From positions 1-64,000 of the forward strand of contig NZ_CP159218.1 of assembly GCF_040438885.1 (NCBI RefSeq): 64,000 bases of DNA. The letters are read 5' to 3'. A program made the position numbers and the translations under genes. The notes beneath the pieces are model-generated. The model worked only from the letters and a program-made list of their open reading frames with translations. It did no database searches and was not told the DNA's origin. The stretch is from Nakamurella sp. A5-74. GTDB taxonomy: Bacteria; Actinomycetota; Actinomycetes; Mycobacteriales; Nakamurellaceae. Positions 27,749-46,361 of this stretch are shown here, one piece after another (position 1 is the stretch's first letter; each line of letters opens with the position of its first letter).

Positions 27749-30157
27749 TCAGGTGATGGGTCGGCCCACGCCCTGCAGGAGCGCCCTCGGCTCCCAGCGC
27801 AGATGGGTGTCCAGTGCAGCCGGATCGGTGTCTCTGACCAGTGACAGCCGGGGACGGACCGCATCGGTGCGAGCGTTGGGGGGTTTGCGGCGCCCGGCCT
27901 GGAACGGCTTCGGCCACGACGCGCCCGGCCCGTCGTACTCCTGCTCGGCAGCGGCATGCAGCGTCCACTGTGGGTCGTACAGGTGGGCCCGACCCAGTGC
28001 GCACAGATCGGCGCGGCCGGCGAGCAGGATCGAATTGACATCGTCGTAGGACGAGATGGCGCCGACGGCGATCACGGCGACCCCTGCGGGCGCTGCAACC
28101 TCGTTGCGGATCCGGTCGGCGAACGGAGTTTGGTAACTCCTGCCGAACGCGGGCCTCTCGTGCTGAGCGATCTGACCGGTGGAGACATCGATCCCGGCCA
28201 CGCCGTGCTCGATGAATGCAGCGGCAATCCGGACGGCGTCGTCCGCGGTCGTCCCACCGTCGATCCAGTCGACAGCAGACATCCGCACAGTGATCGGCCG
28301 GTCTGCCGGCCAGGCGGCGCGGACCGCGTCCAGCACCTCCAACGGATAGCGCAGACGGTTCTCGGGCGTCCCGCCGTAGGCATCGGTGCGGTGGTTCGAC
28401 ACGGCAGACAGGAAGGAGGACAACAGGTATCCGTGCGCGCAGTGCAATTCCAGCAGATCGAAACCTGCTGCTGCCGCCCGGATGGTCGCCGCCACGAACT
28501 CGCCCTTGATCACCTCCATCTGATCCAGGGTCAGCTCATGAGGAACCTGGCTGCCCGGTCCGTAGGGGAGCGCGGAGGGGCCGACCACCGGCCAGTTGTC
28601 GGTCAGCGGCTCGTCCATGCCGTCCCACATCAGTCTGGTGGAGCCCTTGCGGCCCGAGTGCCCGAGTTGAACACCGATCTTGGCCGCCGACTGAGCGTGC
28701 ACGAAGTCCACCACGTCGGTCCAGCTGTCGCGCTGCTCGTCGGTCCACAGTCCGGTGCAGCCCAGGGTGATCCGGCCGCGCGGTGACACACACACCATCT
28801 CGGTCATCACCAGGCCGGCACCGCCCATCGCCTTGCTACCCAGGTGGACGAGGTGGAAGGAGCCCGGCACCCCGTCGGTGGCCGAGTACATGTCCATCGG
28901 GGACACGATGATCCGATTGACCAGCTCGAGCTCGCCCAGCCGGAACGGCTGCAGCATGGCGGGCCGCACCTCATCGAGCCCGTTCGCTGCGGCAAAAGCC
29001 TGATCGACGAGCGAGGCGAACTCGGGATCACGCACCCGCAGGTTCTCGTAGGTGATCCGGCGGGACCGGGTGAGCAGGTTGAAGCAGAACTGGATCATGT
29101 CCTGATCCATGTACTGGCCCAGGTTCTCGAACCACTCGAGGGAGGCCTGCGCAGCTCGCTGGGTGGACTCGACCACCGGTCGGCGTTCAGTCTCGTACGA
29201 CTGGACCGCGTCATCCAGGCCGGCGTGCTCATGCAGGCACGCGGCCAACGCCAGTGCGTCTTCCATCGCCAGTTTGGTGCCCGATCCGATCGAGAAGTGT
29301 GCGGTGTGCGCAGCGTCGCCGATCAGCACGACGTTGCCGCGCCGCCAGGAGCGGTTGCGGACGGTGGTGAAGTTGAGCCATTTCGAGTTGTTGGCCAGCA
29401 CCTGGTGACCATCCAGTTCTTCGGCGAACAGCGAGCGGATGCGCTCGATCGCGAAATCATCGCTCTGCCCAGGTTCGAAGATCCGGTGCTCGGTGTGGTC
29501 GAATCCGGCCGCCCGCCAGACGTCCTCGGTCATCTCGACGATGAAGGTACTGCCGGTGTCCGAGTAGGGATATCCGTGGATCTGCATCACGCCGAACTCG
29601 GTCTGCTTGATGAAGAATTCGAATGCCTCGAAGGCCAGATCTGTTCCCAACCAGATGTACTTGCAGTCGTGCCGCTCGATCGTCGGTCCGAATGCGCTCG
29701 CGTAGCGCGCTCGGATCGGCGAGTTCACCCCGTCCCCCGCCAGGACCAGGTCATGGGTCGCGGACAGCTCCTCGACGTCCGGTGCGGGGGTGCTGAACCT
29801 GACATCGACCCCGAGCTCGACGCAGCGCTGTTGCAACAGCGCCAGCAGATCCTTGCGGGACATGGCGGCAAAGCCCTGGCCACCAGCGGTTTCGGCCTCG
29901 CGGCTGCCGTCGACGCGGCTTCGATGGATGTCGATGTCCGTCCACCGGGCGAACCTGGCGGACATCGCCGCGGCGATCGTGGTGTCGGCATTCTCGATGC
30001 CGCCGAGGGTCTCGTCCGAGAACACCACGCCGAAACCGAAGGTGTCATCGGCCGCGTTGCGCTCCCACACCGTGATCCGGTGCGCCGGATCCAGTTGCAT
30101 CATCAGCGCTGAGAAGTACAGACCGGCCGGCCCCCCGCCGACCACGGCGATCTTCAC
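27749..30157 (-). CDS. Aryl-CoA monooxygenase/reductase fusion (salicylyl-CoA 5-hydroxylase / 2-aminobenzoyl-CoA monooxygenase type)
   Basis: The 802-residue product fuses two flavoenzymes. Residues 1 to about 400 are a class A flavin monooxygenase (GGGPAGLYFSALMM; VLAGDGVNS; GDAAHTAHFSIGSGTKLAMEDA). Residues about 400-760 are an Old-Yellow-Enzyme-type barrel (NRIIVSPMDMYSA; GVQLGHSGRKGS; AHGYLLSSFLSAVSNHRTDAYGG). Known fusions of this type hydroxylate salicylyl-CoA at C5, or hydroxylate and reduce 2-aminobenzoyl-CoA in the aerobic CoA-dependent anthranilate pathway. The neighbouring ligase resembles 2-aminobenzoate-CoA ligases, which favours anthraniloyl-CoA. GTG start overlaps the ligase stop by 4 nt. 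It is last in the five-gene operon. Confidence 0.85.
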   Translation of the reverse strand: MKIAVVGGGPAGLYFSALMMQLDPAHRITVWERNAADDTFGFGVVFSDETLGGIENADTTIAAAMSARFARWTDIDIHRSRVDGSREAETAGGQGFAAMSRKDLLALLQQRCVELGVDVRFSTPAPDVEELSATHDLVLAGDGVNSPIRARYASAFGPTIERHDCKYIWLGTDLAFEAFEFFIKQTEFGVMQIHGYPYSDTGSTFIVEMTEDVWRAAGFDHTEHRIFEPGQSDDFAIERIRSLFAEELDGHQVLANNSKWLNFTTVRNRSWRRGNVVLIGDAAHTAHFSIGSGTKLAMEDALALAACLHEHAGLDDAVQSYETERRPVVESTQRAAQASLEWFENLGQYMDQDMIQFCFNLLTRSRRITYENLRVRDPEFASLVDQAFAAANGLDEVRPAMLQPFRLGELELVNRIIVSPMDMYSATDGVPGSFHLVHLGSKAMGGAGLVMTEMVCVSPRGRITLGCTGLWTDEQRDSWTDVVDFVHAQSAAKIGVQLGHSGRKGSTRLMWDGMDEPLTDNWPVVGPSALPYGPGSQVPHELTLDQMEVIKGEFVAATIRAAAAGFDLLELHCAHGYLLSSFLSAVSNHRTDAYGGTPENRLRYPLEVLDAVRAAWPADRPITVRMSAVDWIDGGTTADDAVRIAAAFIEHGVAGIDVSTGQIAQHERPAFGRSYQTPFADRIRNEVAAPAGVAVIAVGAISSYDDVNSILLAGRADLCALGRAHLYDPQWTLHAAAEQEYDGPGASWPKPFQAGRRKPPNARTDAVRPRLSLVRDTDPAALDTHLRWEPRALLQGVGRPIT

Positions 30158-31860
30158 GGGTGTGTCCCGTCGGTTGCGGCGGCGGTACCAACGGCGCCCT
30201 CACGGGAACCCTCATCGGCGAGATCTTCGCGGAGACGATAGTGCTGCAGCTTCCCACTCGGATTGCGCGGGAGAGCGGCGATGAAGCGGACTTCCCTCGG
30301 GTACTTGTACGGAGCGATCTGTTGCTTCACGAAGTCCTGGATGTCCTTTCGGATCGTTGCACTGGGCTCCACCCCGGGGGTCAGCACCACGAAGGCACAG
30401 ACCACCGATCCTCGTTCGGAATCGGGTCGCGCGACGACGGCCGTCTCCAGCACCGCCGGATGCTTCTGGATCGCATCTTCGACCTCGGGTGCTCCGATGT
30501 TGTAACCGGAGGAGACGATCATGCTGTCGGAGCGGGCATGGAAGGTCAGGTACCCGTCGGCGTCCATCTCGAAGACGTCGCCGGTGATGTTCCAGCCGTC
30601 CTTGACGTAGTCGGCCTGCCGATCTCCGGACAGGTAGCGACAACCGGTCGGGCCGATCACCGCCAGCCGCCCCGGAACGCCGATCCCCGCTGCCTGACCG
30701 TGTTCGTCGAGCACTGCGATCCGGTATCCGGGAACCGCTCGTCCGGTGGCGCCCGGCCGGATGTCCTCGCCCGCTGCGGAGACGAACACGTGCAGCATCT
30801 CGGTGGCGCCGATCCCGTCCACCAGCCGCAGCCCGGTCGCGTCGAAAACCTGTTGCCAGACATCGGCTCCGAGGTGTTCGCCGGCCGAAACGCCGATCCG
30901 GAGTCCGGCCAGCAGCGCCACCTTGCCCTGCTTCACGATGGCCCGGTACGCGGTGGGTGCGGTGAACAGCACGGTGACCCCCGCGTCGTGGCACAGCTGC
31001 GCCAACTCCACCGGAGCGGCCTTCTCGGTGAGCAGCGTCGAAGCGCCGAAACGCAGCGGGAACACCACCAGTCCACCGAGGCCGAAGGTGAACGCCAACG
31101 GCGGCGATCCGCCGAAGACGTCGTCCGGCACCGGTGCGAGTAGGTAGCGGGCGAACGTGTCGGCGTTGGCCAGCACGTCGCGGTGGAAATGCATGGTGAT
31201 CTTCGGGACTCCGGTCGATCCGGAGGTCGGCCCGAGCAGGGCGACATCGTCGGCGGCAGTGGCCACATCCGTGAATTCGCCGGACTTCAGGCCGCATCGT
31301 GCGATGAGATCTTCCGGGCCCGCGCCGCCGAACACCACGGTCGTGGGTAGCGATGGCGCCCCGTCCGGTCCGCTTCCGTCCACCGGCAGGTCGCCGGTGG
31401 AACGGTGATCGCACACGAGCACGCTGGGACTGGTGAGTTCGATCAGTTGCCGGACCTCGCCGGTCCGCAGCGCGGGCGAGGTGGTGACCACGACAGCGCC
31501 GACCTTGAGCACGGCGAGCCAGCAGGCCACCAGCCACTGGTTGTTCGGGGCCCGCAGCATGACGCGGTTGCCGGGGATCACGCCGAGATCCTCGCGGAAC
31601 ACCTGCGCGATCTGATTCGACCGGCGCAGCAGCTCGCCGTAGCTCCAACTGGGCAGGCCGGGCGCATGCAACGCCGGCCGATCGGCGCCGAAATCGGCGG
31701 CTGCGCGGGTGATGAGTTCGGTGGCGGCGTTGAGCTGCACCGGATAGCGCACCTCGGGCACCGTGAACTCGAACGTCGGCCAGGATTCCTGGGGTGGCAG
31801 GTGATCGCGGGTGAAGGTGTCTTGATGCGCGCTGGGGCTCAGCGCTTGATGCTGCATCAT
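30154..31860 (-). CDS. Aryl-CoA ligase (2-aminobenzoate/benzoate-CoA ligase type)
   Basis: The 568-residue product is an AMP-forming acyl/aryl-CoA synthetase that activates an aromatic acid with ATP and CoA. The N-terminus contains FTVPEVRYPVQLNAATELI, typical of benzoate/2-aminobenzoate-CoA ligases. The P-loop-like motif is LLGPTSGSTGVPKITMH, A5 is DGIGATEMLHVF, A7/A8 are GDVFEMDADGYLTFHAR and SSGYNIGAPEVEDAI, and the catalytic Lys is in LPRNPSGKLQHY. ATG 31860 overlaps the thioesterase stop (ATGA). Context and sequence favour anthranilate or salicylate; benzoate cannot be excluded. Confidence 0.85.
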   Translation of the reverse strand: MMQHQALSPSAHQDTFTRDHLPPQESWPTFEFTVPEVRYPVQLNAATELITRAAADFGADRPALHAPGLPSWSYGELLRRSNQIAQVFREDLGVIPGNRVMLRAPNNQWLVACWLAVLKVGAVVVTTSPALRTGEVRQLIELTSPSVLVCDHRSTGDLPVDGSGPDGAPSLPTTVVFGGAGPEDLIARCGLKSGEFTDVATAADDVALLGPTSGSTGVPKITMHFHRDVLANADTFARYLLAPVPDDVFGGSPPLAFTFGLGGLVVFPLRFGASTLLTEKAAPVELAQLCHDAGVTVLFTAPTAYRAIVKQGKVALLAGLRIGVSAGEHLGADVWQQVFDATGLRLVDGIGATEMLHVFVSAAGEDIRPGATGRAVPGYRIAVLDEHGQAAGIGVPGRLAVIGPTGCRYLSGDRQADYVKDGWNITGDVFEMDADGYLTFHARSDSMIVSSGYNIGAPEVEDAIQKHPAVLETAVVARPDSERGSVVCAFVVLTPGVEPSATIRKDIQDFVKQQIAPYKYPREVRFIAALPRNPSGKLQHYRLREDLADEGSREGAVGTAAATDGTHP

Positions 31861-32831
31861 GGCCGCCGGCTCTCGGAAGTGGCTCGGGTCTGCGACGAAC
31901 CTGCCGAACCGGGTGCGCGGATCATGCCCTCCTGGGCGACCGTGGCCAACAACTCCCCTGAACGGGTGTGCAGGTGACCGACGGCCAGTCCGCGGGCGTG
32001 CTGTGCGGACACGGCCTGCTGGCTGTAGAGCACCCAGTCGTCCAGGCGGGCCGGCCGATGGAACCACATGGCGTGATCGAGGCTCGCGGTCACCAGACCC
32101 TCGTCGGCCCAGGCGAGCCCTTGCTGTCGCAACAGCGGTTCCAGGATCGTGTAGTCGCAGACGTAGGCCAGGGCCGCGGTGTGCACCTGCTGATCGTCCG
32201 GTAGTCGGCTGAACGGGCGTAGCCACACGGCCTGGACAGCCGTCGGTCCACCGTTGGTCCCGGTGTAGATCGGGCCGGTCACATGGCGCTGGTCGAAGCT
32301 GCGACCGAACGACCAGTACCTGGCAGCCGGGCCCGGTACGCCGACCAGGGCATCAGCCGCACTCGGCAGCGATTCCGGGTCCGGCATCCCGGTCGGCATC
32401 GGCGCGTGGTGGTCCGCGCCCGGTTCCAGAACCTGGAACGACGCCAGACCGACATAGACGACCTTGTCCGCCTGGTACGCCCGGATCTGACGGGTGGAGA
32501 AACTCCGGCCGTCCCGGAGCAACTCCACCTCGTAGCGGATCTGCGCGCCGATCTCGACGGGGCGCAGGAAATAGCTGTGCATCGAGTGCAGAGCACGATC
32601 GGCTGCCACCGACCGGAGCGCGGCTGTGGTGGCCTGCGCGACCATGTCTCCCCCGTAGGCCTTCGGCCATGGGCAGGGCTGGGTGGTGGCCAGGAAAGCT
32701 CGATCGAAATGCACGGGCTCGGTCGCGGTGAGCTCGATGGCAGCCAGGAAGGTGGCCGCCGTCGGGGGCGCCGCCGCCTCGGCGGCAACCGGGCCGGAGC
32801 CATGCTCCGGCGGGTCCGTGTCGGTCGTCAT
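31857..32831 (-). CDS. TesB-type acyl-CoA thioesterase II
   Basis: The 324-residue double-hotdog protein matches TesB: PCPWPKAYGGDMVAQATTAAL, LHSMHSYFLRPVEIGAQIRYEVE, RSFSTRQIRAYQ and the catalytic Asp in ASLDHAMWFHRP. It hydrolyses an acyl-CoA to free acid and CoA. In this operon its likely substrate is the hydroxylated aryl-CoA made by the monooxygenase, analogous to gentisyl-CoA release in salicylate degradation. That role is inference. It overlaps both neighbours by 4 nt. Confidence 0.85.
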   Translation of the reverse strand: MTTDTDPPEHGSGPVAAEAAAPPTAATFLAAIELTATEPVHFDRAFLATTQPCPWPKAYGGDMVAQATTAALRSVAADRALHSMHSYFLRPVEIGAQIRYEVELLRDGRSFSTRQIRAYQADKVVYVGLASFQVLEPGADHHAPMPTGMPDPESLPSAADALVGVPGPAARYWSFGRSFDQRHVTGPIYTGTNGGPTAVQAVWLRPFSRLPDDQQVHTAALAYVCDYTILEPLLRQQGLAWADEGLVTASLDHAMWFHRPARLDDWVLYSQQAVSAQHARGLAVGHLHTRSGELLATVAQEGMIRAPGSAGSSQTRATSESRRP

Positions 32832-33352
32832 GCCCGACGGAATCCCTCGAGCAAGTCGTCCGGGACCTCGTCGAGATTGACGACGATGTTCTCCGGAGTT
32901 CTCGTGGTCAACCAGACGAGGTCGTCAGTGGTGCTCATGTTCGCCTCGACGTGCGGCATGTACGGGGGGACGAACACCCAGTCTCCCTGGGTCATGTCCA
33001 GCCATGCGGCGCAGTCGGCGCCGAAGTAGATGCGGCCGTGTCCGGACAGCACATAGCCGCCGGTCTCCGCCTCACCGTGGTGGTGGGGCACCGACCGGTA
33101 GCCCGGCTTGTTGCTGACCTGGCCGAACCAGATCCGCGTGGCTGGAGTGTGCGCGATGCTCACCCCGGACACCCGCACGCAATCACCCGACTGTGTGGTG
33201 TCGGTGCTCTCCTCGCCGGCTCGGGTCACCACCGGCACCACCCGTCCTTCAGGACCGGCGTACTGCTCGTTGGGCCCGGCTTGCTGCAGACCCGGCTGAT
33301 CGGGAGTGACCATCAACGTGCTCCTCGGGTAGACGTTCCATGCCGGACTCAT
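32828..33352 (-). CDS. Single-domain cupin protein
   Basis: The 174-residue product is one cupin barrel. The first motif PHHHGEAETGGYVLSGHGRIYFG supplies His-His-Glu ligands and the second GDWVFVPPYMPHVEAN supplies a His, so a mononuclear metal site is intact. It sits between thioesterase and acylpyruvase-type genes with 4-nt overlaps on both sides. That position in a gentisate-like order is where a ring-cleaving dioxygenase would be, but gentisate dioxygenases are bicupins of about 350 residues. The activity is unassigned; isomerase or dioxygenase are both possible. Confidence 0.75.
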   Translation of the reverse strand: MSPAWNVYPRSTLMVTPDQPGLQQAGPNEQYAGPEGRVVPVVTRAGEESTDTTQSGDCVRVSGVSIAHTPATRIWFGQVSNKPGYRSVPHHHGEAETGGYVLSGHGRIYFGADCAAWLDMTQGDWVFVPPYMPHVEANMSTTDDLVWLTTRTPENIVVNLDEVPDDLLEGFRRA

Positions 33353-34227
33353 TCCGGTCGGCTCACGGCTGGTGCTGCGTTGCTCGATTCCTCGGCGGCG
33401 GTGAACCTGACGGTGTTGTCCAACCGGCCCAGGGTCTCTATCTCGGTCACCATCCGGCTGCCGTCGCGCAGGTAGGTGGGCGGCTTCGAGGCACTTCCGA
33501 CCCCACCCGGCGTCCCCATCAGCACCAGGTCCCCGATCCGCAAGGTGGTGAAGGTGGAGATGTAGGCCAACAGGCTCGGGGCGTCGAAGACGAGTTCTCG
33601 GGTGTTGCTCTCCTGGCGGACCTGGTCGTCGACCGTGCAGCGGAGGGTCAGTCCGGCCACCGGATCGACCTCATCAGGGGTGATCAGGACCGGGCCGACC
33701 GGTGTGCTGGCATCCCAGGCCTTGCCCTGGAACCACTGCAGCGTGCGGTGTTGCCAGTCGCGCATCGAGAGGTCGTTCGCGATCGTGTAACCGGCGATCC
33801 CCCTGGCCGCAGTGTCCCGGTCGGCGCGCACCAGGGTGGCACCGACCACCACCGCCAGCTCGGCTTCCCAGTCGAGAGCCTCTTGGGCGGCCGGCGGCAC
33901 CAGGATGTCGTCGTCTGCCCCGATCAGGGTGTCGGCGTACTTGGCGAACAGGGTCGGATACTCCGGCAGCGCGCGACCCATCTCGGTGATGTGATCGGCG
34001 AAGTTCAAGCCGCAGCAGATCACCTTGCCCGGGTTGACGACCACCGGCGCGAGGCTGAACTGCTCGGTGAGTGGCGCCTCGTCCAACGCTCTACGCGCGG
34101 TCTCTGCCCAGGACGGAGTGGCCAGCAGGGCCTCGACGCTGGGGGCCGGCAGGGGGTGATGTCGGCCATCGGCGTCCTGCACCGTCGCCTGGGTCCGCTC
34201 AGCTCGTCGTACCGTGGCCAGTCGCAT
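33349..34227 (-). CDS. Fumarylacetoacetate hydrolase family protein (acylpyruvase/hydratase type)
   Basis: The 292-residue product has the FAH fold with GKVICCGLNFADHITEMG, LFAKYADTLIGADDDI, metal-binding DWEAELAVVVG, ANDLSMRDWQ and KAWDASTPVGP. Family members cleave fumarylpyruvate or other acylpyruvates, or hydrate 2-oxo-pentenoates. First gene of the minus-strand operon, it is preceded by GGAGGG and by a TTGACG-16-TATAAA promoter at 34263-34290. In this pathway it most likely cleaves a ring-fission product. Confidence 0.87.
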   Translation of the reverse strand: MRLATVRRAERTQATVQDADGRHHPLPAPSVEALLATPSWAETARRALDEAPLTEQFSLAPVVVNPGKVICCGLNFADHITEMGRALPEYPTLFAKYADTLIGADDDILVPPAAQEALDWEAELAVVVGATLVRADRDTAARGIAGYTIANDLSMRDWQHRTLQWFQGKAWDASTPVGPVLITPDEVDPVAGLTLRCTVDDQVRQESNTRELVFDAPSLLAYISTFTTLRIGDLVLMGTPGGVGSASKPPTYLRDGSRMVTEIETLGRLDNTVRFTAAEESSNAAPAVSRPE

Positions 34228-34262: not shown

Positions 34263-34297
34263 TTTATACTCTAATCCTTACGGCCGTCAATAGAACA
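34263..34297. promoter_or_regulatory. Shared 35-bp element, copy 1 (FAH operon / RidA promoter region)
   Basis: TTTATACTCT-N7-ACGGCCGTCA-N2-AGAACA aligns without gaps with the element at 36305. On the minus strand it reads TTGACG (34285-34290) and TATAAA (34263-34268) with a 16-bp spacer, a plausible sigma-70 promoter for the five-gene operon giving a leader of about 28 nt. It lies 53-87 bp before the RidA start. Confidence 0.6.
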
Positions 34298-34349: not shown

Positions 34350-34751
34350 ATGCCGCACGAGAACGTCAACCCACCGAACTTGGCGCGGCCCAGCGGGTTC
34401 GCCCACGCGACGGTCGCTCCGGCCGGCGCTCGGATCGTGCATCTCAGCGGGCAGACGGCCATGGACGCGGACGGGACGATCGTGCCCGGCGGAATCCTGG
34501 AGCAGTTCAGGCAGGCATTCGGCAATGTGCTCACCGCGCTGGCGGCGGCCGGCGGCACGCCGGACGACCTGGTGTCGGTGACCATCTATCTCACCGACGT
34601 GCCCGATTACCAGGCCAACGGGCGACAGATCGGCAGGATCTGGCGCGAGCTGGCCGGCACCCACTACCCGGCCATGGCCGGCATCGGGATCACCAGGCTG
34701 TGGCAACCCGAGGCCCTGATCGAGATCTCCGCAGTGGCGGCCCTGGACTGA
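34350..34751 (+). CDS. RidA-family imine/enamine deaminase
   Basis: The 133-residue product matches the RidA/YjgF family: VHLSGQTAMDADGTIVPGG, QFRQAFGNVLTALAAAGGTPDDLVSVTIYLTDV and YPAMAGIGITRLWQPEALIEISAVA. RidA proteins hydrolyse reactive imines or enamines to ketones and ammonia. In an anthranilate-type pathway, where the monooxygenase/reductase yields a 2-amino-enone thioester, a dedicated imine hydrolase would help remove nitrogen; this is inference. GAGGGAGA precedes the ATG. It is divergent from the FAH operon. Confidence 0.88.
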   Translation: MPHENVNPPNLARPSGFAHATVAPAGARIVHLSGQTAMDADGTIVPGGILEQFRQAFGNVLTALAAAGGTPDDLVSVTIYLTDVPDYQANGRQIGRIWRELAGTHYPAMAGIGITRLWQPEALIEISAVAALD

Positions 34752-35683: not shown

Positions 35684-35862
35684 GTCCAGAACTCCGTGAT
35701 CAGCGAATACGGCCACAGCTCCGGATGCGGTGGCTCAGCATGATGTGCCCGGAATGAATTGTCCTGCGGGATCCGACCAGCCCCGAGCACCCACCCGGGA
35801 AGCGCCCCGCCGGTCGGTCTTGGGCAGTGAGTCCCCTGCAGCGGGTGCCCGGCCAGTGGTCC

Positions 35863-36303
35863 TCAGGAGGACGGATGCTCCAGTGCGGCCGTCATGGTGA
35901 TCTCGGCGGCGGCGAACAGCTTGGACACCGGACAGGTCACCTTGGCCTGCTCGGCGAAGGCGGTGAACTCGTCGACCGTCAGGCCTTCGACCTCGCCCCG
36001 GGTCCGCAGGGCGACCCTGGAGATCGAGAAGCTGCCGCCGACCTCTTCCATGGTGACGGTGGCGTCGGTGCTGACCAGGTGATTCTGGTGGCCGGCTTCA
36101 TCCAGCAGGCTGCTCAGAGCCATCGAGAAACAGCCCGCGTGGGCGGCGCCGAGCAACTCCTCGGGATTGGTGGCGGCGGTGTCCTCCACCCTCGACTTCA
36201 GCGAGAACGGGAGTTCGGCACCGGCGCGACCCAGGCGCATCAGGCCGGAACCCTTCTCCACCGGTCCCGACCACGAGGCGAAGGCATGACGCAGAATCTT
36301 CAT
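35863..36303 (-). CDS. OsmC-family protein (second paralogue)
   Basis: The 146-residue product begins MKILRHAFASWSGPVEKGSG and carries Cys58 (AAHAGCFSMAL) and Cys124 (VTCPVSKLF), the OsmC peroxidase pair. It is encoded inside the catabolic island, with AAGGAG then ATAAAC before the ATG. The shared 35-bp element ends two bases upstream of the start. It is probably induced with the pathway, to detoxify peroxide released by uncoupled flavin monooxygenase; this is inference. Confidence 0.87.
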   Translation of the reverse strand: MKILRHAFASWSGPVEKGSGLMRLGRAGAELPFSLKSRVEDTAATNPEELLGAAHAGCFSMALSSLLDEAGHQNHLVSTDATVTMEEVGGSFSISRVALRTRGEVEGLTVDEFTAFAEQAKVTCPVSKLFAAAEITMTAALEHPSS

Positions 36304-37177: not shown

Positions 37178-37306
37178 TGACCCGGCGCGGGCGCCATATC
37201 GGTCATGTTACGAAAAAATGACGACCGCAAAATTCTTTACACAGCCCGGTCCTGATGACACGATCGCTGGCAGCCCAGCAGCCCATCGAGTGCAAGGTCG
37301 TGACCC

Positions 37307-38650: not shown

Positions 38651-39568
38651 GTGGAGTTTTTCGGTCAACAACTGGTCAACGGGCTGACGCTCGGCAGCGT
38701 CTACGCCTTGATCGCGCTGGGCTACACCCTCATCTACGGTGTGCTGCAACTGCTTAACTTCGCGCACGGCGATGTGTACATGGTCGGCGCCTTCATCGGC
38801 TTCTTCGTGATGATCGGGCTGGGCGGTCCCGCCGCCCCGATCGTCCCGGTGTGGTTGATGATCATGGCGATGTTCCTGGCGGCCATGCTGGGGAGCGGAA
38901 TTCTCGGCGTGCTGATCGAACAGTTCGCCTATCGCCCGTTGCGCAACTCGCCTCGGATCGCCCCGCTGATCAGTGCGCTCGGCGTTTCGTTGTTCCTGCA
39001 GAACGCGGTGCTGCTGCTGTTCGGTCCGCGGATCCGCGACTACGCCACCACCGAGTACATACCGATCGGCAGTGGATTCTCGATCGGTGCGATCCGCATC
39101 GATCCGATGCGCATTCTCGTCGTCGTGCTCTCGGTGATCTTGATGCTCGTCCTGGTGCGTCTGGTCAACCGCACCAGGTTCGGTCGCGGCATGCGGGCCG
39201 TTGCCTTCGATCGCGAGGCCGCGGTGATGATGGGCATCGACGTGAACAGGGTGGTGGTGCTGACGTTCTTCTGTGCTTCCGCGCTGGCCGGCGCCGCCGG
39301 TGTGATGGTGGGACTTGTCTTCTTCAACGTCTCCAACTTCATGGGATTCCTGGCCGGCCTGAAGGGCTTCACGGCAGCGGTGGTGGGCGGCATCGGTTCG
39401 GTGGGTGGCGCCATGGTCGGCGGCTTGCTGATCGGGTTGTTGGAGGCCTTTGCCACCGGTTACCTGTCAGCCAATCTGGCCAACCTGATCTCGTTCGTCG
39501 CGCTCATTGCTGTCATGTTGGTCAAACCGCGCGGCTTGCTCGGACGTTCGGCGATTGTGAAGGTGTGA
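38651..39568 (+). CDS. Branched-chain-type ABC importer permease (LivH-like)
   Basis: The 305-residue polytopic membrane protein matches LivH: QQLVNGLTLGSVYALIALGYTLIYG and LLNFAHGDVYMVGAF at the start, then RAVAFDREAAVMMGIDVNRV, the cytoplasmic EAA-like loop contacting the ATPases, and GGIGSVGGAMVGGLLIGL. The GTG start has AAAGGG upstream. It is followed by livM after 1 bp. Confidence 0.93.
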   Translation: MEFFGQQLVNGLTLGSVYALIALGYTLIYGVLQLLNFAHGDVYMVGAFIGFFVMIGLGGPAAPIVPVWLMIMAMFLAAMLGSGILGVLIEQFAYRPLRNSPRIAPLISALGVSLFLQNAVLLLFGPRIRDYATTEYIPIGSGFSIGAIRIDPMRILVVVLSVILMLVLVRLVNRTRFGRGMRAVAFDREAAVMMGIDVNRVVVLTFFCASALAGAAGVMVGLVFFNVSNFMGFLAGLKGFTAAVVGGIGSVGGAMVGGLLIGLLEAFATGYLSANLANLISFVALIAVMLVKPRGLLGRSAIVKV

Positions 39569-39569
39569 G

Positions 39570-41099
39570 ATGACCGGTGACGATCCGACCGAGGGCGCCC
39601 GCTCGATCAGCGGGAGCGATCCGATCAGCGGAGACCCCGGTCCAGGTCCCGGGACACTCGCGGTCAGTCCGCTGGGGATCGGAACCGACGAATGGGTGGC
39701 CCAGCACGAAACCCGGACGACCGCCGGGAACGGTCTGGGGGCACGGGTCACGCTCCTGTGGACGAAATTGCCGGCCGCCGTGCGATGGGGGCTTCCGCTG
39801 CTGGTGTTCTTGCTGTTCCCGGTCGTGGTGTCCAGCGGCTATCTGTTGCGGATCGGGGTCAATCTGGGCCTGTTCGCGCTGCTCGCGCTCGGCCTGAACG
39901 TGGTCGTCGGTTATGCCGGTCTGCTCGATCTGGGATTCGTGGCGTTCTACGGGTGCGGGGCCTACGCCTACGCGCTGCTGTCGTCGGACCAACTCGGTGT
40001 CCATCTGCCGACCTGGGTGTCCGTTCCCGCTGCGGTGCTGTTCACCGGCCTGATCGGGCTGCTGGTCAGCTTGCCCTCCCGGCGGTTGAGCGGCGACTAT
40101 CTGGCCATCGTCACGCTGTTCTTCGGTCAGATCTTCACCGAACTGGTGCTGGCCGGCGACGCGGTGAGCCTGCCTGGTTCGAGTGATCCGGTGGACATCA
40201 CCGGTGGGGCCAACGGCATCTCAGGGGTCAGCGGTTGGTCGTTGTTCGGATTCACTTTCAGCGGTAACCGTTCCTACTACTACCTGGTGCTGTTCTTCGT
40301 CGTCATCCTGGTCCTGGGGCTTTCTCGGATCAGCCGGACCCGGATGGGGCGGGCCTGGCGCGCGATCGGTGAGGACCCACTCGCGGCTGCGGCCATGACG
40401 ATCCGGGTGAACCGGCTCAAGTTGCTGGCCTTCGTGGTCGGTGCCGGGATCGCCGGGCTGAGCGGAACGATCTTCGCGGCCGTGCAGGTCGGCGTCTATG
40501 CCAGCACATTCGACCTGCCGATGCTGATCCTGTTGTACGCAGCGGTGATTCTCGGCGGCAGCGGCTCGCTGCCAGGCACCCTGATCGGCGCCGCGATCAT
40601 GAGCCTGCTGCCCGAAGTGTTGCGACAGCCCAACTACAGCGAGCTGCTGTTCTTCGTGGGTCTGATCGCCGGGGTGGTCTGGATCCTCAGGCCGAAGATC
40701 GCCGCGCTGGTGATTGCCGGCACCGTGGCCCTGGGGTTCGGGATCAACGTGGTGCTGTTGGCTGTCGGCGTGCCGTACCTGTCGGCCGATGAGTGGACCA
40801 AGGGCGTCATCGGGCAGCTCCTGGGCCGCTGGCTGTTCGTCCCGCAGGAGCGGCTGCTCTGGGGCAACGTTGCGTTCGTGTTGTTGATCGCCTCGGTGGC
40901 GGTGTTCTCGCGGATGCGCGGTCGCGCGAAGCTGTGGTTCCTGCCCGTGCTGCTGTGGTTGGCCGTGTTCGTGTGGATGGTGCGCCTGTCGACGGAATCC
41001 AGCCTGACCCGTCAGCTGGTGATCGGATCGACGCTGGTGGTGCTGATGATCGCCCGGCCGCAGGGTCTTTTCGGCCGGCAACGGGTGGAGGTGCTGTGA
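39570..41099 (+). CDS. Branched-chain-type ABC importer permease (LivM-like, extended)
   Basis: The 509-residue product is longer than typical LivM (about 320-420). An acidic/Gly-rich cytoplasmic extension of about 55 residues precedes the membrane core (LNVVVGYAGLLDLGFVAFYGCGAYAYALL; SRISRTRMGRAWRAIGEDPLAAAAMTI; ILGGSGSLPGTLIGAAIM). The C-terminus has extra hydrophobic spans (about 365-500) before RPQGLFGR. Stop overlaps the next start (GTGA). Confidence 0.9.
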   Translation: MTGDDPTEGARSISGSDPISGDPGPGPGTLAVSPLGIGTDEWVAQHETRTTAGNGLGARVTLLWTKLPAAVRWGLPLLVFLLFPVVVSSGYLLRIGVNLGLFALLALGLNVVVGYAGLLDLGFVAFYGCGAYAYALLSSDQLGVHLPTWVSVPAAVLFTGLIGLLVSLPSRRLSGDYLAIVTLFFGQIFTELVLAGDAVSLPGSSDPVDITGGANGISGVSGWSLFGFTFSGNRSYYYLVLFFVVILVLGLSRISRTRMGRAWRAIGEDPLAAAAMTIRVNRLKLLAFVVGAGIAGLSGTIFAAVQVGVYASTFDLPMLILLYAAVILGGSGSLPGTLIGAAIMSLLPEVLRQPNYSELLFFVGLIAGVVWILRPKIAALVIAGTVALGFGINVVLLAVGVPYLSADEWTKGVIGQLLGRWLFVPQERLLWGNVAFVLLIASVAVFSRMRGRAKLWFLPVLLWLAVFVWMVRLSTESSLTRQLVIGSTLVVLMIARPQGLFGRQRVEVL

Positions 41100-41908
41100 T
41101 CAGCCCGGACGGATCGAACCGGACCCGGCTGCTTGAACTCTCGCAGCTGAGCAAGAGTTTCGGCGGACTGCGCAGTCTGCAGGAGCTGGATCTCTGGGTC
41201 GACGCCGGAGAGGTGGTGAGTGTGATCGGCCCCAACGGCGCGGGCAAGACCACCCTGTTCAATGTGATCACCGGGATCTACTCACCCACGTCCGGTGACG
41301 TGAGGTTCGACGGCCGGTCCCTGGTGGGTGCAACCCCCGCCGACATCGCCTCCCGCGGCATCGCCCGGACGTTCCAGACGGTGCGCCTGTTCCTCAACAT
41401 GTCAGTGCGCGACAACGTGATGGCGGCAACCTTCGGCCACACCAAGGCCGGACTCTGGCGCTCGGCCCTGGGTACCCCGGGATCGCGTCGCGAGGAGCGC
41501 GAGGTCCGCGCCCGCGCCGAAGAGCTGCTGTCGTTCTTCGGCACCCGACTGATGGGATATCGGTGGGATCAACCGGCCTATTCGCTGTCCTATGCCAATC
41601 GGCGACGGCTCGAGATCGCCCGTGCCATGGCCACCGGCGCCAGGATGCTGCTCCTGGACGAGCCGGCGGCTGGGATGAACCCGTCGGAAACGCATGAGAT
41701 CAGCGAGCTCGTGGGAAGACTCCGCGACGAACGCGGGTACACCATCATGATCATCGAACACGACATGCACGTCGTGGAGGGAGTCAGTGATCGGGTGATC
41801 GCGCTGGATCACGGCGTGAAGATCGCGGACGGGCTGTTCGACGAGGTCGCCGCGCACCCCGACGTCGTCGAAGCCTACTTGGGTCGCGGAACGGCGGGCA
41901 CGAAATGA
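41096..41908 (+). CDS. Branched-chain-type ABC importer ATPase (LivG-like)
   Basis: The 270-residue ATPase has Walker A GPNGAGKTT, a Q-loop in ARTFQTVRLF, an unusual signature region AYSLSYANRRRLEIARAMA (LSYANRR where LSYGxQR is usual, as in some LivG proteins), Walker B MLLLDEPAAGMNP and the switch His in IIEHDMHVV. The GTG start overlaps the livM stop. It powers the LivH/LivM permease with LivF. Confidence 0.92.
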   Translation: MISPDGSNRTRLLELSQLSKSFGGLRSLQELDLWVDAGEVVSVIGPNGAGKTTLFNVITGIYSPTSGDVRFDGRSLVGATPADIASRGIARTFQTVRLFLNMSVRDNVMAATFGHTKAGLWRSALGTPGSRREEREVRARAEELLSFFGTRLMGYRWDQPAYSLSYANRRRLEIARAMATGARMLLLDEPAAGMNPSETHEISELVGRLRDERGYTIMIIEHDMHVVEGVSDRVIALDHGVKIADGLFDEVAAHPDVVEAYLGRGTAGTK

Positions 41909-42681
41909 GGGGCTTCCGGAAGACCGGACCCGTTGCTGCGCACAGTGATTCATCTGGGTCCGGCCGCCCGGTCGGGGAGCCGCTGCTGCGTCTGGTGGAG
42001 GTGAACACCTACTACGGCCAGGTCCACATCCTGCAGGGAGTGACGTTGGAGGTGGCCGACGGTGAACTGGTGTGCTTGCTGGGCGGAAACGCCTGCGGCA
42101 AGTCCACAACCCTCAAGACGATCCTCGGCCTGGTGGCGCCCCGGTCCGGGCGGGTGCTGTTCGATGGCCAGGACGTGACCAGCTGGTCGCCGTCCCGACG
42201 GATCGCCGGCGGGATGGCAGTCGTTCCGGAGAACCGGCGCTTGTTCGCACCGATGACCGTGACGGAGAACCTCCGGATCGGCGCCTATGTGCACGGCGAT
42301 GCCAGGGCAGAAGATTTCGACCGGGTGTACAGCCTGTTCCCCTTGTTGGCCGAGCGCCGGAACCAGTTGGCGGGCACGCTGTCCGGCGGCGAGCAGCAGA
42401 TGGTGGCCGTGGGGCGGGCGCTGATGTCGCGGCCGAGGGTGCTGCTGATGGACGAACCGTCGATGGGGCTGTCGCCGCGCCTGGTGGAGCAGAGTTTCGA
42501 ACTGATCTCCGAACTCCATGCAGCCGGCGTCTCGATGCTGGTGATCGAGCAGAACGCGAACATGGCACTGTCCGTGGCTGATCGAGGGTATGTGCTTCAA
42601 ACCGGTCGCATCGTGCTGACCGGACCGGCCGGAGAACTGGCCGCCCACGAAGAATTGAGGAGGGCTTATCTTGGCCGTTGA
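41905..42681 (+). CDS. Branched-chain-type ABC importer ATPase (LivF-like)
   Basis: The 258-residue ATPase has Walker A GGNACGKST (a variant of GPNGAGKT seen in part of this family), Q-loop VVPENRRLFAPMTVTENL, signature LSGGEQQMVAVGRAL, Walker B VLLMDEPSMGLSP and switch region VIEQNANMAL. The ATG overlaps the livG stop (ATGA). About 28 extra residues precede the core. Its end overlaps the start of the kynureninase-like gene, linking importer and enzymes in one operon. Confidence 0.92.
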   Translation: MRGFRKTGPVAAHSDSSGSGRPVGEPLLRLVEVNTYYGQVHILQGVTLEVADGELVCLLGGNACGKSTTLKTILGLVAPRSGRVLFDGQDVTSWSPSRRIAGGMAVVPENRRLFAPMTVTENLRIGAYVHGDARAEDFDRVYSLFPLLAERRNQLAGTLSGGEQQMVAVGRALMSRPRVLLMDEPSMGLSPRLVEQSFELISELHAAGVSMLVIEQNANMALSVADRGYVLQTGRIVLTGPAGELAAHEELRRAYLGR

Positions 42682-43867
42682 GGAAGAAACATCCACCGGA
42701 TCGGTAGCTGTATCGCCAGCTGCATCGTCAGGTTCCCTGTCGGAGTCCATCCGACACCGGTTTCCGATCTTCGAGCATCTCACCTACGTCAACAGTTGTT
42801 CCCAGGGCGCGCTGTCGGATTCTGTGCGGGCGGCCTACCAGGACTACCTGGACGGACTGGAGCGGGAAGGATCGTTGTGGGAACACTGGGTGGGCAAGCA
42901 GGAATCTGTCCGCGACCAGTTGGCCACGCTGCTCGGAGCGACGCCGGCCGAGATCGCGGTGACCACCTCGGGGTCCGCCGCCGTCAGCTCGCTGGCGAGC
43001 TCGTTCGACTTCGGCAACGGGCGGACCAAGGTGGTGACCACCGACCTCGAGTTCCCGATGATCGGTCAGATCTGGCATGCCCAGGAACGGCGCGGGGCCG
43101 AGGTGGTCCACGTACCGGCGGATCCGGACAACACGATCCCGCTGGATCGGTTCGCCGACGCGATCGACGATCGGACGGCCATCGTCTCGCTGACCCAGGT
43201 CTGCTATCGGAACGGGGCGAGGATGGACCTTGCGCCGATCATCGAGCTGGCGCACTCTCGTGGCGCGCTGGTGCTGGTGGATGCCTACCAGGGGGTCGGC
43301 GCCGTACCGCTGGACGTCGCCGAACTCGACGCCGATTTCGTCACCGGAGGTGTGCTGAAGTACCTGTTGTCCTCACCGGGTGTGGGTTTTCTGTACGCCA
43401 AGCAGGCCACGACTGCAGCCCTGCAGCCGACGGTGACCGGCTGGTTCGCCGCGCGGGACATCTTCGCGATGGACATCCACTCCTACGACCCTGCCCAGGA
43501 TGCCCGTCGCTTCGAGTCAGGCACCCCGGCAGTCCCGAGTCTGTATGCGGCGGAGGCCGGAATCTCCTTGATGCTGCAGATCGGCGTCGCCGATTCCTGG
43601 TTGCACGTGCAGAGCCTGCTGGCCCAGCTACGCGCCGGCATTGAGGGCATCGGTGGAACCGTGGCGACGCCGGCCGCGCTGGCCGGACCGATGTTGGCGG
43701 TGGCGACCACGGACGAGCACGCCGCAGTGAAGGCGTTGGAGAACGACGGCGTCATCGTCAGCTCCCGTGACGGCAACGTCCGGATCTCGCCGCACTGCTA
43801 CAACAATGACGCGGACGTCGAGGCCGTGATCGCGGCCCTGCACCGGAATCGACACCTGTTGCGCTGA
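42671..43867 (+). CDS. Kynureninase-like class V PLP-dependent enzyme
   Basis: The 398-residue product is a fold-type I, class V aminotransferase-like protein. The conserved region VLVDAYQGVGAVPLDV supplies the PLP-binding Asp, TGGVLKYLLSSPGVGFLY supplies the Schiff-base Lys, and WFAARDIFAMD follows. Kynureninase, cysteine desulfurase-like and isopenicillin-epimerase-like enzymes share this fold. A neighbour of the cyclase/kynurenine-formamidase superfamily and anthranilate genes make a kynureninase-type role possible. The TTG start has GAGGAGGG 7 nt upstream and overlaps livF by 11 bp. Confidence 0.75.
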   Translation: MAVEEETSTGSVAVSPAASSGSLSESIRHRFPIFEHLTYVNSCSQGALSDSVRAAYQDYLDGLEREGSLWEHWVGKQESVRDQLATLLGATPAEIAVTTSGSAAVSSLASSFDFGNGRTKVVTTDLEFPMIGQIWHAQERRGAEVVHVPADPDNTIPLDRFADAIDDRTAIVSLTQVCYRNGARMDLAPIIELAHSRGALVLVDAYQGVGAVPLDVAELDADFVTGGVLKYLLSSPGVGFLYAKQATTAALQPTVTGWFAARDIFAMDIHSYDPAQDARRFESGTPAVPSLYAAEAGISLMLQIGVADSWLHVQSLLAQLRAGIEGIGGTVATPAALAGPMLAVATTDEHAAVKALENDGVIVSSRDGNVRISPHCYNNDADVEAVIAALHRNRHLLR

Positions 43868-43938
43868 CCAGCGCAGCCGCACCCCAGCACGCCGGACCGA
43901 CCGCGTGTCGGCCGGTCCACCACCACAAGGAGATGGCC

Positions 43939-44718
43939 ATGTCCGTTCTCACCGAGCTAATCGGGTCGCTGCGTTCCGGCGCTGTCCAGATCATCGATCT
44001 CACGGCCCCGTTGACCAGTACCACGCCGATCCTGCAGTTGCCGCCGCCGTTCGCGAACACCATCAATTTCCGGTTGGAGGAGATCAGCAGGTATGACGAG
44101 CGCGGTCCCGCCTGGTACTGGAACGACATCCACACCGGCGAGCACGCCGGCACCCACATGGACGCGCCCGTGCACTGGATCACCGGGCGGGAGAGTCTGG
44201 ACATCTCCCAGGTGCCGCTGACCCAGCTCATCGCCCCGGCGGCAGTCCTCGACTTCTCGGCCCAAGCAGCCGCAGACCCCGATTTCCTGCTCGAGGTGGA
44301 CCACATCCGGAGCTGGGAGGCCGAGCACGGTGCCCTGCCGGAGGGCGGCTGGCTGATCTTCCGCACCGGCTGGGACGCCTTCTCCGAGGACCAGGAACGG
44401 TTGCTGAACGCCAACGACACCGGCCCACACTCACCGGGCGTGTCGGTCGAATGCGCCACCTGGTTGGCCCAGGAGGCGCCGATCGTCGGCGTCGGCGTCG
44501 AGACGGTCGGTACGGACGCGGGCGCAGCCCATTCGTTCGACCCGCCCTTTCCGTGCCACCAGTCGCTGCTCGGTGCCGGGAAGTTCGGACTCACCCAGCT
44601 GCAGAACGTCGCTCTCCTCCCGCCGACCGGCGCCCTCGTCGTGACAGCCCCGCTGCCGATCGTCGGCGGCTCGGGCAGCCCGACCCGAGCGCTGGCCCTG
44701 GTCGAACGATCTTCGTGA
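43939..44718 (+). CDS. Cyclase-family metal hydrolase, isatin hydrolase-like
   Basis: The 259-residue product belongs to the cyclase superfamily (kynurenine formamidase, isatin hydrolase). The metal motif HTGEHAGTHMDAPVHW has His73, Asp75 and His79. Features such as TPILQLPPPFANT near the N-terminus, GPHSPGVSVECATWL and GVGVETVGTDAGAAHSFDPPFPCHQ resemble isatin hydrolases more than bacterial KynB (about 210 residues). Isatin hydrolase opens isatin to isatinate. ATG 43939 is chosen over 43933 because AAGGAG ends at 43932. The stop overlaps the ThDP enzyme start, a strong functional link. Confidence 0.8.
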   Translation: MSVLTELIGSLRSGAVQIIDLTAPLTSTTPILQLPPPFANTINFRLEEISRYDERGPAWYWNDIHTGEHAGTHMDAPVHWITGRESLDISQVPLTQLIAPAAVLDFSAQAAADPDFLLEVDHIRSWEAEHGALPEGGWLIFRTGWDAFSEDQERLLNANDTGPHSPGVSVECATWLAQEAPIVGVGVETVGTDAGAAHSFDPPFPCHQSLLGAGKFGLTQLQNVALLPPTGALVVTAPLPIVGGSGSPTRALALVERSS

Positions 44719-46361
44719 ACGTCGCCGAGGCTGTCGGGCAGACACTTGCCCGCCTGGGGGTCGAGGCGGCCTTCGGTGTGGTCGGCAGTGGGAACTTCCA
44801 CGTGACGAACGCGCTCGTGGCCGGTGGTGCCCGGTTCTTCGCCGCCCGCCACGAGGGCGGCGCAGCGACCATGGCAGACGCCTATGCCCGGGTCAGTGGA
44901 ACGGTTGCAGCGGTCACCGTGCACCAGGGATGTGGTCTGACGAATGCGCTGACCGGCATCACCGAGGCGGCCAAGAGCCGTACACCTCTGGTGGTGCTGG
45001 CGGCCGAGACCACCGCGCCCAGATCCAATTTCCATGTCGATCAAGCAGCACTGGCCACCGCGGTCGGCGCTCTGGCCCACCGGGTCACCTCAGCCGAGAT
45101 GGCTGTTGCCGAGAGCGCCGCCGCGTTCCACGCCGCTCGCGATCAGCGACGCACCGTGCTGCTCAATCTGCCCTTGGAACTGCAGGTGCAGGAAGTTCCC
45201 GAGAGTGCGCTCGCGGTGCCCTCCGCACCCCCATTGCCCAGTCCCACCTCGGATCCAGCCGCCATGGCACAGTTGGTCGCCGCGCTCGCGGCCGCTCGTC
45301 GGCCGGTGTTCATCGCCGGCCGCGGCGCCCGCTCGCACGCCGCCAGGGATGCCATCGCCGAGCTGGCCGAACGCACCGGTGCACTGCTGGCCACCTCAGC
45401 GGTGGCCCGTGGACTGTTCCACAGCAACCCTTTTGCGCTCGATGTGTCCGGCGGGTTCGCCTCGCCACTGGCCGCCGAGCTGATCACCGGCGCCGACCTG
45501 ATCGTCGGCTGGGGATGCTCGATGAACATGTGGACGATGCGTCACGGCCGGTTGATCGGCCCGGATGCAACGGTGGCCCAGGTCGACATCGAGGCCGGCG
45601 AATTGGGTGCCAACCGGCCGATCGACGTCGGGATCGCCGGCGACGCGGCGGCCGTGGCGGTCAGCGCGGCGCGGGCACTGCACGGCCAGGACCACCACAG
45701 CTCCGGCTATCGGAGCGCTCAGGTGGAACAGCGGATCGCAGCCGAAATCTCCTGGCGCACAGTGCCTTACGAAGACGACAGTACTGACGAGCTGATCGAT
45801 CCGCGGACCCTCAGCATCGGTCTGGACGATGTCCTCCCGGCGGAGCGGATCCTGGCCGTCGATTCGGGGAACTTCATGGGCTACCCGAGCATGTTCCTGT
45901 CGGTTCCGGACGAGCAGGGAATGTGTTTCACCCAGGCGTACCAGTCGATCGGTCTCGGTCTGGCGACTGCGATCGGCGCCGCGCTGGCCAGACCCGACCG
46001 GTTGCCCGTGGCGGCGCTCGGTGACGGTGGAGCACTGATGGGTATCGCGGAACTGGACACCGTCGTCCGGTTGGGCATCCCGATGGTCATCGTCGTCTAC
46101 AACGACGACGGCTACGGCGCCGAGGTCCACCACTTCGCCAGCAGTGGTGAGCCGATGGACACCGTCACCTTCCCCGACACCGACATCGCAGCCATCGGAG
46201 CAGGGTTCGGCTGCGACGCGGTCACTGTTCGTGCCCCGTCCGATCTCGACGCGGTCCGCACCTGGGTCAACGGGCAGCGGGAGCGACCGTTGCTCATCGA
46301 CGCGAAAGTCACCAGGGGACAAGCATCCTGGTGGCTGGAGGAGGCTTTCCGCGGGCACTGA
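44715..46361 (+). CDS. ThDP-dependent 2-oxo-acid decarboxylase-like enzyme
   Basis: The 548-residue product has the three domains of the acetolactate synthase/benzoylformate decarboxylase family. The PYR domain contains Glu47 (ARHEGGAATMADAYAR) that activates the cofactor, and a central domain (RPVFIAGRGARSHAARDAI) is present. The PP domain carries the GDG...N motif (ALGDGGALMGIAELDTVVRLGIPMVIVVYNDDGYG). Coupled by GTGA overlap to an isatin hydrolase-like gene, a fitting substrate would be isatinate (2-aminophenylglyoxylate), whose decarboxylation leads toward anthranilate. This is inference; no signature fixes the substrate. Confidence 0.8.
   Translation: MNVAEAVGQTLARLGVEAAFGVVGSGNFHVTNALVAGGARFFAARHEGGAATMADAYARVSGTVAAVTVHQGCGLTNALTGITEAAKSRTPLVVLAAETTAPRSNFHVDQAALATAVGALAHRVTSAEMAVAESAAAFHAARDQRRTVLLNLPLELQVQEVPESALAVPSAPPLPSPTSDPAAMAQLVAALAAARRPVFIAGRGARSHAARDAIAELAERTGALLATSAVARGLFHSNPFALDVSGGFASPLAAELITGADLIVGWGCSMNMWTMRHGRLIGPDATVAQVDIEAGELGANRPIDVGIAGDAAAVAVSAARALHGQDHHSSGYRSAQVEQRIAAEISWRTVPYEDDSTDELIDPRTLSIGLDDVLPAERILAVDSGNFMGYPSMFLSVPDEQGMCFTQAYQSIGLGLATAIGAALARPDRLPVAALGDGGALMGIAELDTVVRLGIPMVIVVYNDDGYGAEVHHFASSGEPMDTVTFPDTDIAAIGAGFGCDAVTVRAPSDLDAVRTWVNGQRERPLLIDAKVTRGQASWWLEEAFRGH

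Follow-up and report, generated by a model that had tools for sequence, protein, structure and literature searches.

A question raised by the window (a stretch of 64,000 nucleotides that begins with dnaA of Nakamurella sp. A5-74, a soil actinomycete whose genome is a single contig of 4.75 Mb) is whether two adjoining groups of genes at positions 27749 to 46361 serve one pathway. The first group resembles operons for the coenzyme A (CoA)-dependent breakdown of anthranilate, and the second comprises an importer, an isatin-hydrolase-like cyclase and a thiamine diphosphate (ThDP) enzyme. An earlier note on this DNA had proposed one regulon that imports an aromatic compound, funnels it to anthranilate and attacks the ring as a CoA ester; all the genes that it named were found in place, by Pfam and NCBIfam matches and by coordinates. 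On balance, the genes of the island probably form a single PaaX-family regulon for the breakdown, via anthranilate, of an isatin-type compound derived from indole. The evidence comes from the likeness of the CoA half to the operon of pAL1 (Arthrobacter sp. Rue61a), from predicted operators ahead of both halves, and from the clustering of the halves in other genomes. The features of the island are the following:

27749 to 30157, minus strand: fusion of a flavin adenine dinucleotide (FAD) monooxygenase and an old yellow enzyme (OYE)-type reductase, 2-aminobenzoyl-CoA monooxygenase/reductase type (Pfam, NCBIfam; 73% identity to the pAL1 protein)
30154 to 31860, minus strand: AMP-forming aryl-CoA ligase, likely an anthranilate-CoA ligase (Pfam; 64% identity to the assayed pAL1 ligase)
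31857 to 32831, minus strand: TesB-type acyl-CoA thioesterase (profile matches)
32828 to 33352, minus strand: single-domain cupin with a conserved His/Glu motif (Pfam, alignment)
33349 to 34227, minus strand: FAH-family hydrolase (Pfam)
34278 to 34289: predicted PaaX-type operator in the FAH/RidA gap, TTACGGCCGTCA (rank 1 by the first model, rank 2 by the second)
34350 to 34751, plus strand: RidA-family enamine/imine deaminase (profile match)
34850 to 35716, minus strand: PaaX-family repressor (Pfam; 50% identity to the pAL1 PaaX-family regulator)
35863 to 36303, minus strand: OsmC-family peroxiredoxin (149.2 bits, cut-off 85.8)
36320 to 36331: predicted PaaX-type operator in the OsmC/bicupin gap, GGACGACCGTCA (rank 2, first model only)
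36398 to 37177, plus strand: bicupin (profile match; in three of 298 genomes, the window included)
37219 to 37230: predicted PaaX-type operator ahead of the importer operon, TGACGACCGCAA (rank 3 by the first model, rank 1 by the second)
37307 to 38611, plus strand: Liv-type substrate-binding protein (profile matches)
38651 to 39568, plus strand: Liv-type permease 1 (profile match)
39570 to 41099, plus strand: Liv-type permease 2 (profile match)
41096 to 41908, plus strand: ATP-binding cassette (ABC) ATPase 1, start inferred (profile match, start-codon inspection)
41905 to 42681, plus strand: ABC ATPase 2 (profile match)
42671 to 43867, plus strand: KynL, a class-V pyridoxal phosphate (PLP) enzyme, kynureninase-like and not the true kynureninase of the genome (profile scores)
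43933 to 44718, plus strand: isatin-hydrolase-like cyclase (PDB 5nmp, E 4.7e-75; motifs)
44715 to 46361, plus strand: ThDP enzyme, candidate isatinate decarboxylase (profile match; pairing with the cyclase)

The five minus-strand genes, in the order FAH-cupin-TesB-ligase-fusion, overlap one another stop codon to start codon at each of their four junctions, and this set is not a chance arrangement, since it was found again in other genera. On the plus strand, the genes follow one another closely from that of the binding protein to that of the ThDP enzyme: the start of KynL overlaps the end of the last ATPase gene, and the ThDP gene starts at a GTG (44715) overlapping the cyclase stop. The listed open reading frames of the ligase and the ThDP enzyme begin upstream of their likely true starts. 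Seven genes (PaaX, RidA and the FAH-cupin-TesB-ligase-fusion set) share one order with pAL1, with identities of 73% for the fusion, 64% for the ligase, 58% for TesB, 76% for the cupin, 52% for FAH, 63% for RidA and 50% for the PaaX-family regulator. Both by gene content and order and, as judged by sequence statistics, by a PaaX-family regulator with a shared predicted operator, the CoA half is a new member of the already known pAL1-type operon.

Operators were predicted with two models, independent in the sequences used and not in their seed, which was the same 12-base core. This core is reportedly that of MeqR2, and the palindromes of pAL1 and Tsukamurella show it as well. Of 117 regions upstream of pathway genes, 29 contained the palindrome TGACGNNCGTCA with no more than one mismatch (28 of 111 if the window is set aside), and permuted half-sites (n = 59) matched a mean of 0.71 and a maximum of five regions. 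The first model (40 bp) was built from 29 sites outside the window, including one same-genus site (Nakamurella lactea, G016), and gave the three window sites the top ranks among 63,961 positions, with scores of 29.5 (34278), 26.0 (36320) and 17.1 (37219) and 11.5 for the next one. No site of at least 17 was found by this model in 52 control loci without the fusion (1.167 Mb), and a single one was found in 60 simulated windows. The second model used only RidA promoters of a set of 78 loci (see below), N. lactea being left out. It placed 37219 first (22.5) and 34278 second (9.4), with a control maximum of 1.4, and 36320 twelfth with a negative score. A larger pseudocount gave 27.9 for 37219, 17.8 for 34278 and 4.4 for 36320 (control maximum 11.9); two further versions gave 34278 scores of 10.6 and -0.8 and put 36320 at ranks 11 and 18. 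The putative importer and FAH/RidA operators are backed by two models and the OsmC/bicupin one by a single model, which therefore lowers our confidence in one regulon and raises that in two separate units. Overall, these statistics suggest that both halves are likely under joint control of the repressor of the window, as the earlier note had supposed. This protein belongs to the PaaX family by its Pfam domains, scored 148.7 bits against TIGR02277 (PaaX proper; cut-off 264.55), and showed no operator site in its own promoter. In the 78-locus set, the first model found a site at FAH, RidA or the cupin in 75 of the 77 loci with RidA, and upstream of the cyclase or ThDP gene in 8 of 41 loci. A single site lies between divergent fusion and cyclase genes in two genomes (G185 and G260).

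Co-occurrence of the halves, a check named in the earlier note, was borne out in 298 genomes sampled at the level of the order. Of these, 63 had the cyclase (E up to 1e-70); the fusion was present (E up to 1e-180) in 45, and both in 27 (Fisher p 4e-10, uncorrected for relatedness). In 11 of these 27 the two genes lie at most 25 kb apart on one contig; two more clustered cases, G264, whose cyclase is weaker, and a copy at a contig end in G046, are not in this count. A scan of contigs found 481 cupin relatives, from which 78 loci were kept, mostly from Micrococcaceae, and these are not an unbiased census. Within 10 kb, fusion, ligase and TesB were present in all 78, RidA in 77, FAH in 73, PaaX in 69, the cyclase in 30, the ThDP enzyme in 37 and either of the last two in 41. 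In Deinococcus psychrotolerans, the fusion, ligase, cyclase, ThDP enzyme and RidA form one run. For the cyclase, 64 loci were read: those of the 63 cyclase genomes except G220, plus G264 and the second, contig-end copy of G046; the fetched stretches vary in length and some stop at contig ends. It is unlikely that the island is made of two independent neighbours, a pAL1-type anthranilate operon and an importer-cyclase-ThDP operon acting on some other 2-oxo acid or cyclic amide. Such independence would agree with N. lactea (G016), which carries the fusion, ligase, TesB and cupin genes and lacks the cyclase, and with 51 of the 64 cyclase loci, in which no fusion was found in the fetched stretch, so that the cyclase-ThDP pair also exists independently. 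It is opposed by the operator that heads the importer operon by two models, by the clustering of the halves in 11 of 27 genomes, and by the cyclase or ThDP gene within 10 kb in 41 of the 78 loci.

Regarding the compound that enters the pathway, the cyclase matched isatin hydrolases of the PDB, as with 5nmp (E 4.7e-75). The available text of PMC6117287 describes isatin hydrolases by a metal motif, a WxW/FxW pocket and a GLQC or GLAS signature. The motif HxG[T/A]HxDxPxH and the pocket are present in the window cyclase as HAGTHMDAPVH and WYW, and the catalytic His is conserved. Since GLTQ replaces GLQC/GLAS, we named it isatin-hydrolase-like only; among 96 homologues with at least 50% identity, GLTQ occurred in 54, GLTS in 21 and GLQC in one.

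A ThDP gene directly follows the cyclase in 58 of the 64 loci. Four others (G013, which is of the same genus, and G190, G246 and G264) have in its place a pair of genes for an indolepyruvate-type ferredoxin oxidoreductase, which adjoins the cyclase in three and lies 6-8 kb off in G246; of the remaining loci, G080 has neither enzyme and one is broken by a contig end. Oxidoreductases annotated as this type also stand beside cyclase and anthranilate genes on one Tsukamurella and two Rhodobacterales plasmids, one of the latter carrying a styrene/indole-type monooxygenase as well. Among ThDP homologues, a His-Gln-Gly motif is kept in 95 of 97, two being gapped; its His is presumably the active-site His of benzoylformate decarboxylase. 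The exchange of the ThDP enzyme for the oxidoreductase suggests that the cyclase product is a 2-oxo acid such as isatinate, the simplest product because both enzymes found beside the cyclase are able to use 2-oxo acids. Tentatively, and at somewhat less than an even chance, isatinate would be an intermediate handled by either of two interchangeable types of ThDP enzyme, a decarboxylase or a ferredoxin oxidoreductase, both feeding one anthraniloyl-CoA-responsive PaaX-family regulon across Actinomycetota. The oxidoreductase would turn isatinate and CoA straight into anthraniloyl-CoA, bypassing the ligase. If true, this would provide enzymes still lacking for the steps from isatin to anthranilate when indole and auxin are broken down. 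Against a role of the oxidoreductase, nine genes (iadC-K2), by name without iotA/iorB, reportedly sufficed for anthranilate in Variovorax. A search of the Nakamurella genome, run without a control genome, gave no oxidoreductase match. As a separate observation, a plasmid of Rhodococcus erythropolis R138 (L109) has a cyclase and a ThDP gene followed by an ABC importer, thiolase, acyl-CoA ligase and aldehyde dehydrogenase, and resembles an actinobacterial iad-type auxin locus.

The earlier note had also taken the PLP enzyme for a kynureninase that makes anthranilate. KynL scored 72.9-73.6 bits against TIGR01814 (kynureninase; cut-off 246.4) and 118 bits against the SufS model, higher and also far below the cut-off of that model. 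Its best solved-structure match was a kynureninase (86 bits), followed by cysteine desulfurases (81 bits). The true kynureninase of this genome was located at 2.73 Mb (268 bits, cut-off 246) and tryptophan 2,3-dioxygenase at 2.26 Mb. Because of its score below the family cut-off and the presence of a true kynureninase elsewhere, KynL was rejected as a kynureninase orthologue. Since these two genes lie elsewhere in the genome, the anthranilate hub may also receive kynurenine-derived anthranilate. Homologues of KynL (E up to 1e-40) occurred in 34 of the 298 genomes, with 41% identity in G264 and G019 and 32-37% in the others, and the bicupin only in the window, G264 and G019. In G264, the KynL homologue, OsmC and bicupin lie near the same anthranilate operon, beside an amino-acid permease, and this homologue weakly matches the kynureninase C-terminal domain. 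In G019, KynL and bicupin are on contigs other than those of the anthranilate genes, and no operator site of at least 17 was found in the stretches. Given this distribution, KynL and the bicupin were rejected as general parts of the pathway.

These data bear on a kynurenine route, in which the cyclase would act as N-formylkynurenine formamidase and KynL as kynureninase, the importer would take up kynurenine and the ThDP enzyme would serve another acid. The narrow preference of KynL for a kynureninase structure, the G264 neighbourhood and a 37% identical enzyme adjoining tryptophan 2,3-dioxygenase in Micromonospora would fit. Such a route is nevertheless improbable given the profile scores of KynL and the true kynureninase elsewhere. 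In addition, the cyclase is far nearer to isatin hydrolases than to arylformamidases, with whose model it scored 26.9 bits (cut-off 223), has GLTQ at the place of the I(L/I)E motif of KynB, and is paired almost constantly with a ThDP or 2-oxoacid enzyme. Apart from this, a second class-V PLP enzyme (46448-47626; TIGR01976, 364.7 bits, cut-off 352.35) is encoded on the opposite strand just past the ThDP gene, and on Deinococcus plasmids (L104 and L106) KynL-like enzymes form runs together with M24 proteins or members of the Xaa-Pro peptidase family, close to cyclase-ThDP pairs and an importer of the peptide type.

The anthranilate hub and CoA-dependent attack proposed in the earlier note were supported by the pAL1 operon. 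The pAL1 ligase ARUE_113p00220 was assayed and was active on anthranilate, as given in the available part of PMC3534580, whose printed primers match both ends of the pAL1 ligase gene. According to the same part, its authors concluded that Rue61a degrades anthranilate only via CoA esters, described esters that are possibly hydroxyanthraniloyl-CoA and cyclohexanedione-carboxyl-CoA, and reported no growth on salicylate, gentisate or 5-hydroxyanthranilate. On account of this assay and of the CoA-ester and growth data, anthranilate is favoured as substrate, and the window ligase is likely an anthranilate-CoA ligase.

The fusion scored 1180.6 bits against NCBIfam NF006101 (salicylyl-CoA 5-hydroxylase/oxidoreductase; cut-off 1078); since automatic annotation gives the pAL1 fusion this name too, it does not decide the substrate. 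Fusion loci were read in 29 of the 45 fusion-bearing genomes. Cupin and TesB lie near the fusion in 11 of them, the window included, along with a ligase in 10 and FAH in seven of the 11 (tblastn). The other 18 have an enoyl-CoA hydratase, short-chain dehydrogenase/reductase (SDR) or acyl-CoA dehydrogenase nearby in 16 cases and a ligase in 15. There are thus two kinds of fusion operon, the cupin/TesB kind and the enoyl-CoA hydratase/SDR/acyl-CoA dehydrogenase kind. Over all 29 loci, RidA is near the fusion in 26 and a PaaX-family gene in 27, and the occurrence of RidA in both kinds fits a ring that bears nitrogen and an enamine as the product of the fusion. Cupin matches of E 1.3e-57 or better were found in 11 genomes, all at most about 3 kb from the fusion. 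The window cupin is 76% identical to that of pAL1, 82% to that of Tsukamurella, 70% to those of Alloyangia and Rhizobium and 84% to that of N. lactea (G016), and H90, H91, H92, E96 and H134 are invariant in all 15 sequences; its predicted structure (mean predicted local distance difference test score, pLDDT, 36.7) was too poor for use. A salicylate route (salicylyl-CoA made by the ligase, gentisyl-CoA by the fusion, gentisate freed by TesB, its ring opened by the cupin and the product cleaved by FAH) would account for the NCBIfam name and for thioesterase, cupin and FAH, and is very unlikely in view of the anthranilate activity of the closest characterised ligase, the growth data of the pAL1 host, the presence of RidA near the fusion in 26 of 29 loci, as would fit an amino substrate, and the lack of a sequence match of either cupin to a solved gentisate dioxygenase.

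Under the proposed isatin-type pathway, the compound would be taken up by the Liv-type importer and, by homology, isatin would be opened by the cyclase to isatinate. The ThDP enzyme would decarboxylate isatinate to 2-aminobenzaldehyde, and a cellular dehydrogenase would oxidise this to anthranilate. The ligase, at 64% identity to the assayed enzyme, would form anthraniloyl-CoA; after attack by the fusion, RidA would hydrolyse an enamine, and TesB, cupin and FAH may complete ring opening, in an order and by a chemistry that we infer. The repressor would act at two or three operators, with release probably by a pathway CoA ester such as anthraniloyl-CoA, which is reportedly the kind of ligand that the pAL1 repressor recognises.

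Several observations weigh against this pathway. It leaves KynL, OsmC and the bicupin unexplained, and there is no aldehyde dehydrogenase among the genes of the island. No matches to the iad-type thiolase, acyl-CoA ligase and indole monooxygenase were found within 22 kb of the window cyclase; an indole-type monooxygenase gave only a trace match in the genome, in which a distant (35%) FAD oxidoreductase lies elsewhere. The cyclase lacks the signature of proven isatin hydrolases, and most cyclase loci (the 51 of 64 mentioned above) show no fusion in the stretch fetched. As for the operators, 34278 fell to -0.8 in one version of the second model, still ranking second; 36320 ranked 9-18 across versions, within or below the control range; and 37219 differs from the core by two mismatches. 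The core with at most two mismatches was not above chance over the whole window (71 against 63.7 expected), and a core with one mismatch or none was found within 150 bp upstream of the cyclase in one of 13 loci with the fusion and in none of the 51 without.

In the window 1-27627 the oriC region (dnaA, dnaN, gnd, recF, gyrB, gyrA, DUF3566) is followed by tRNA-Ile and tRNA-Ala, with no Rfam rRNA match alongside; since these tRNAs come after dnaA-dnaN-recF-gyrB-gyrA, a foreign or rRNA-operon context was rejected. The fusion gene ends 122 bases after tRNA-Ala, and between them lies a perfect 20-base inverted repeat (27627-27675), possibly a two-way terminator. The gnd/recF gap contains a tandem repeat (8619-8735) of a 32-base unit in 3.7 copies, the units containing TGACGGTCGT. 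A ferredoxin-NAD reductase (23764-24990) resembles those of Rieske dioxygenases (HcaD/AndAa/PadH-like); a Rieske system was rejected, as the neighbours scanned are not Rieske proteins.

The earlier note knew of no described pathway with exactly this set, and our searches of the open-licence literature likewise gave none with the whole of it. This needs qualifying for the CoA half, which is the pAL1 operon, and for the route via isatin to anthranilate, described for iad auxin loci in the available text of PMC9613470. What is new is the combination of the halves and their likely unity through predicted operators. A review of indole degradation (PMC6221969, in its available part) leaves open whether isatin is a true intermediate, the role of isatin hydrolase and the genes for anthranilate; the present data connect these three points through gene order, replacement pattern and a shared predicted operator. 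Operator and operon together offer a sequence signature for finding such routes in actinomycetes.

Compared with known systems, the island shares with pAL1, besides the seven genes, an operator-model site (31.6) in the RidA/FAH gap; the upper pathway adjoining it is quinaldine degradation in pAL1, whereas in the window it is the importer, KynL, cyclase and ThDP enzyme. The aerobic 2-aminobenzoyl-CoA pathway of Azoarcus evansii, to which PMC3534580 refers, reportedly has a ligase and a monooxygenase/reductase fusion, common to both, and the window differs in having TesB, cupin and FAH without enoyl-CoA hydratase, SDR or acyl-CoA dehydrogenase. The isatin hydrolases LaIHA, LaIHB and RsIHA have the HxGTHxDxPxH metal motif, WxW pocket and catalytic His of the window cyclase, and GLQC/GLAS instead of its GLTQ. 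Finally, in the iad loci of Variovorax and Bradyrhizobium, isatin, isatinic acid and anthranilate were measured and a C7H7NO species was placed before anthranilate; these loci contain IadI (annotated as kynurenine formamidase), an ABC importer protein and iotA/iorB genes (PMC9613470, PMC12633357, in the portions available). Their route from isatin through isatinic acid to anthranilate is like the one proposed for the island. They differ from the island in Rieske oxygenase, of which none was found among the window proteins scanned, and in having iotA/iorB and MarR control, where the window has a ThDP enzyme and PaaX-family control.

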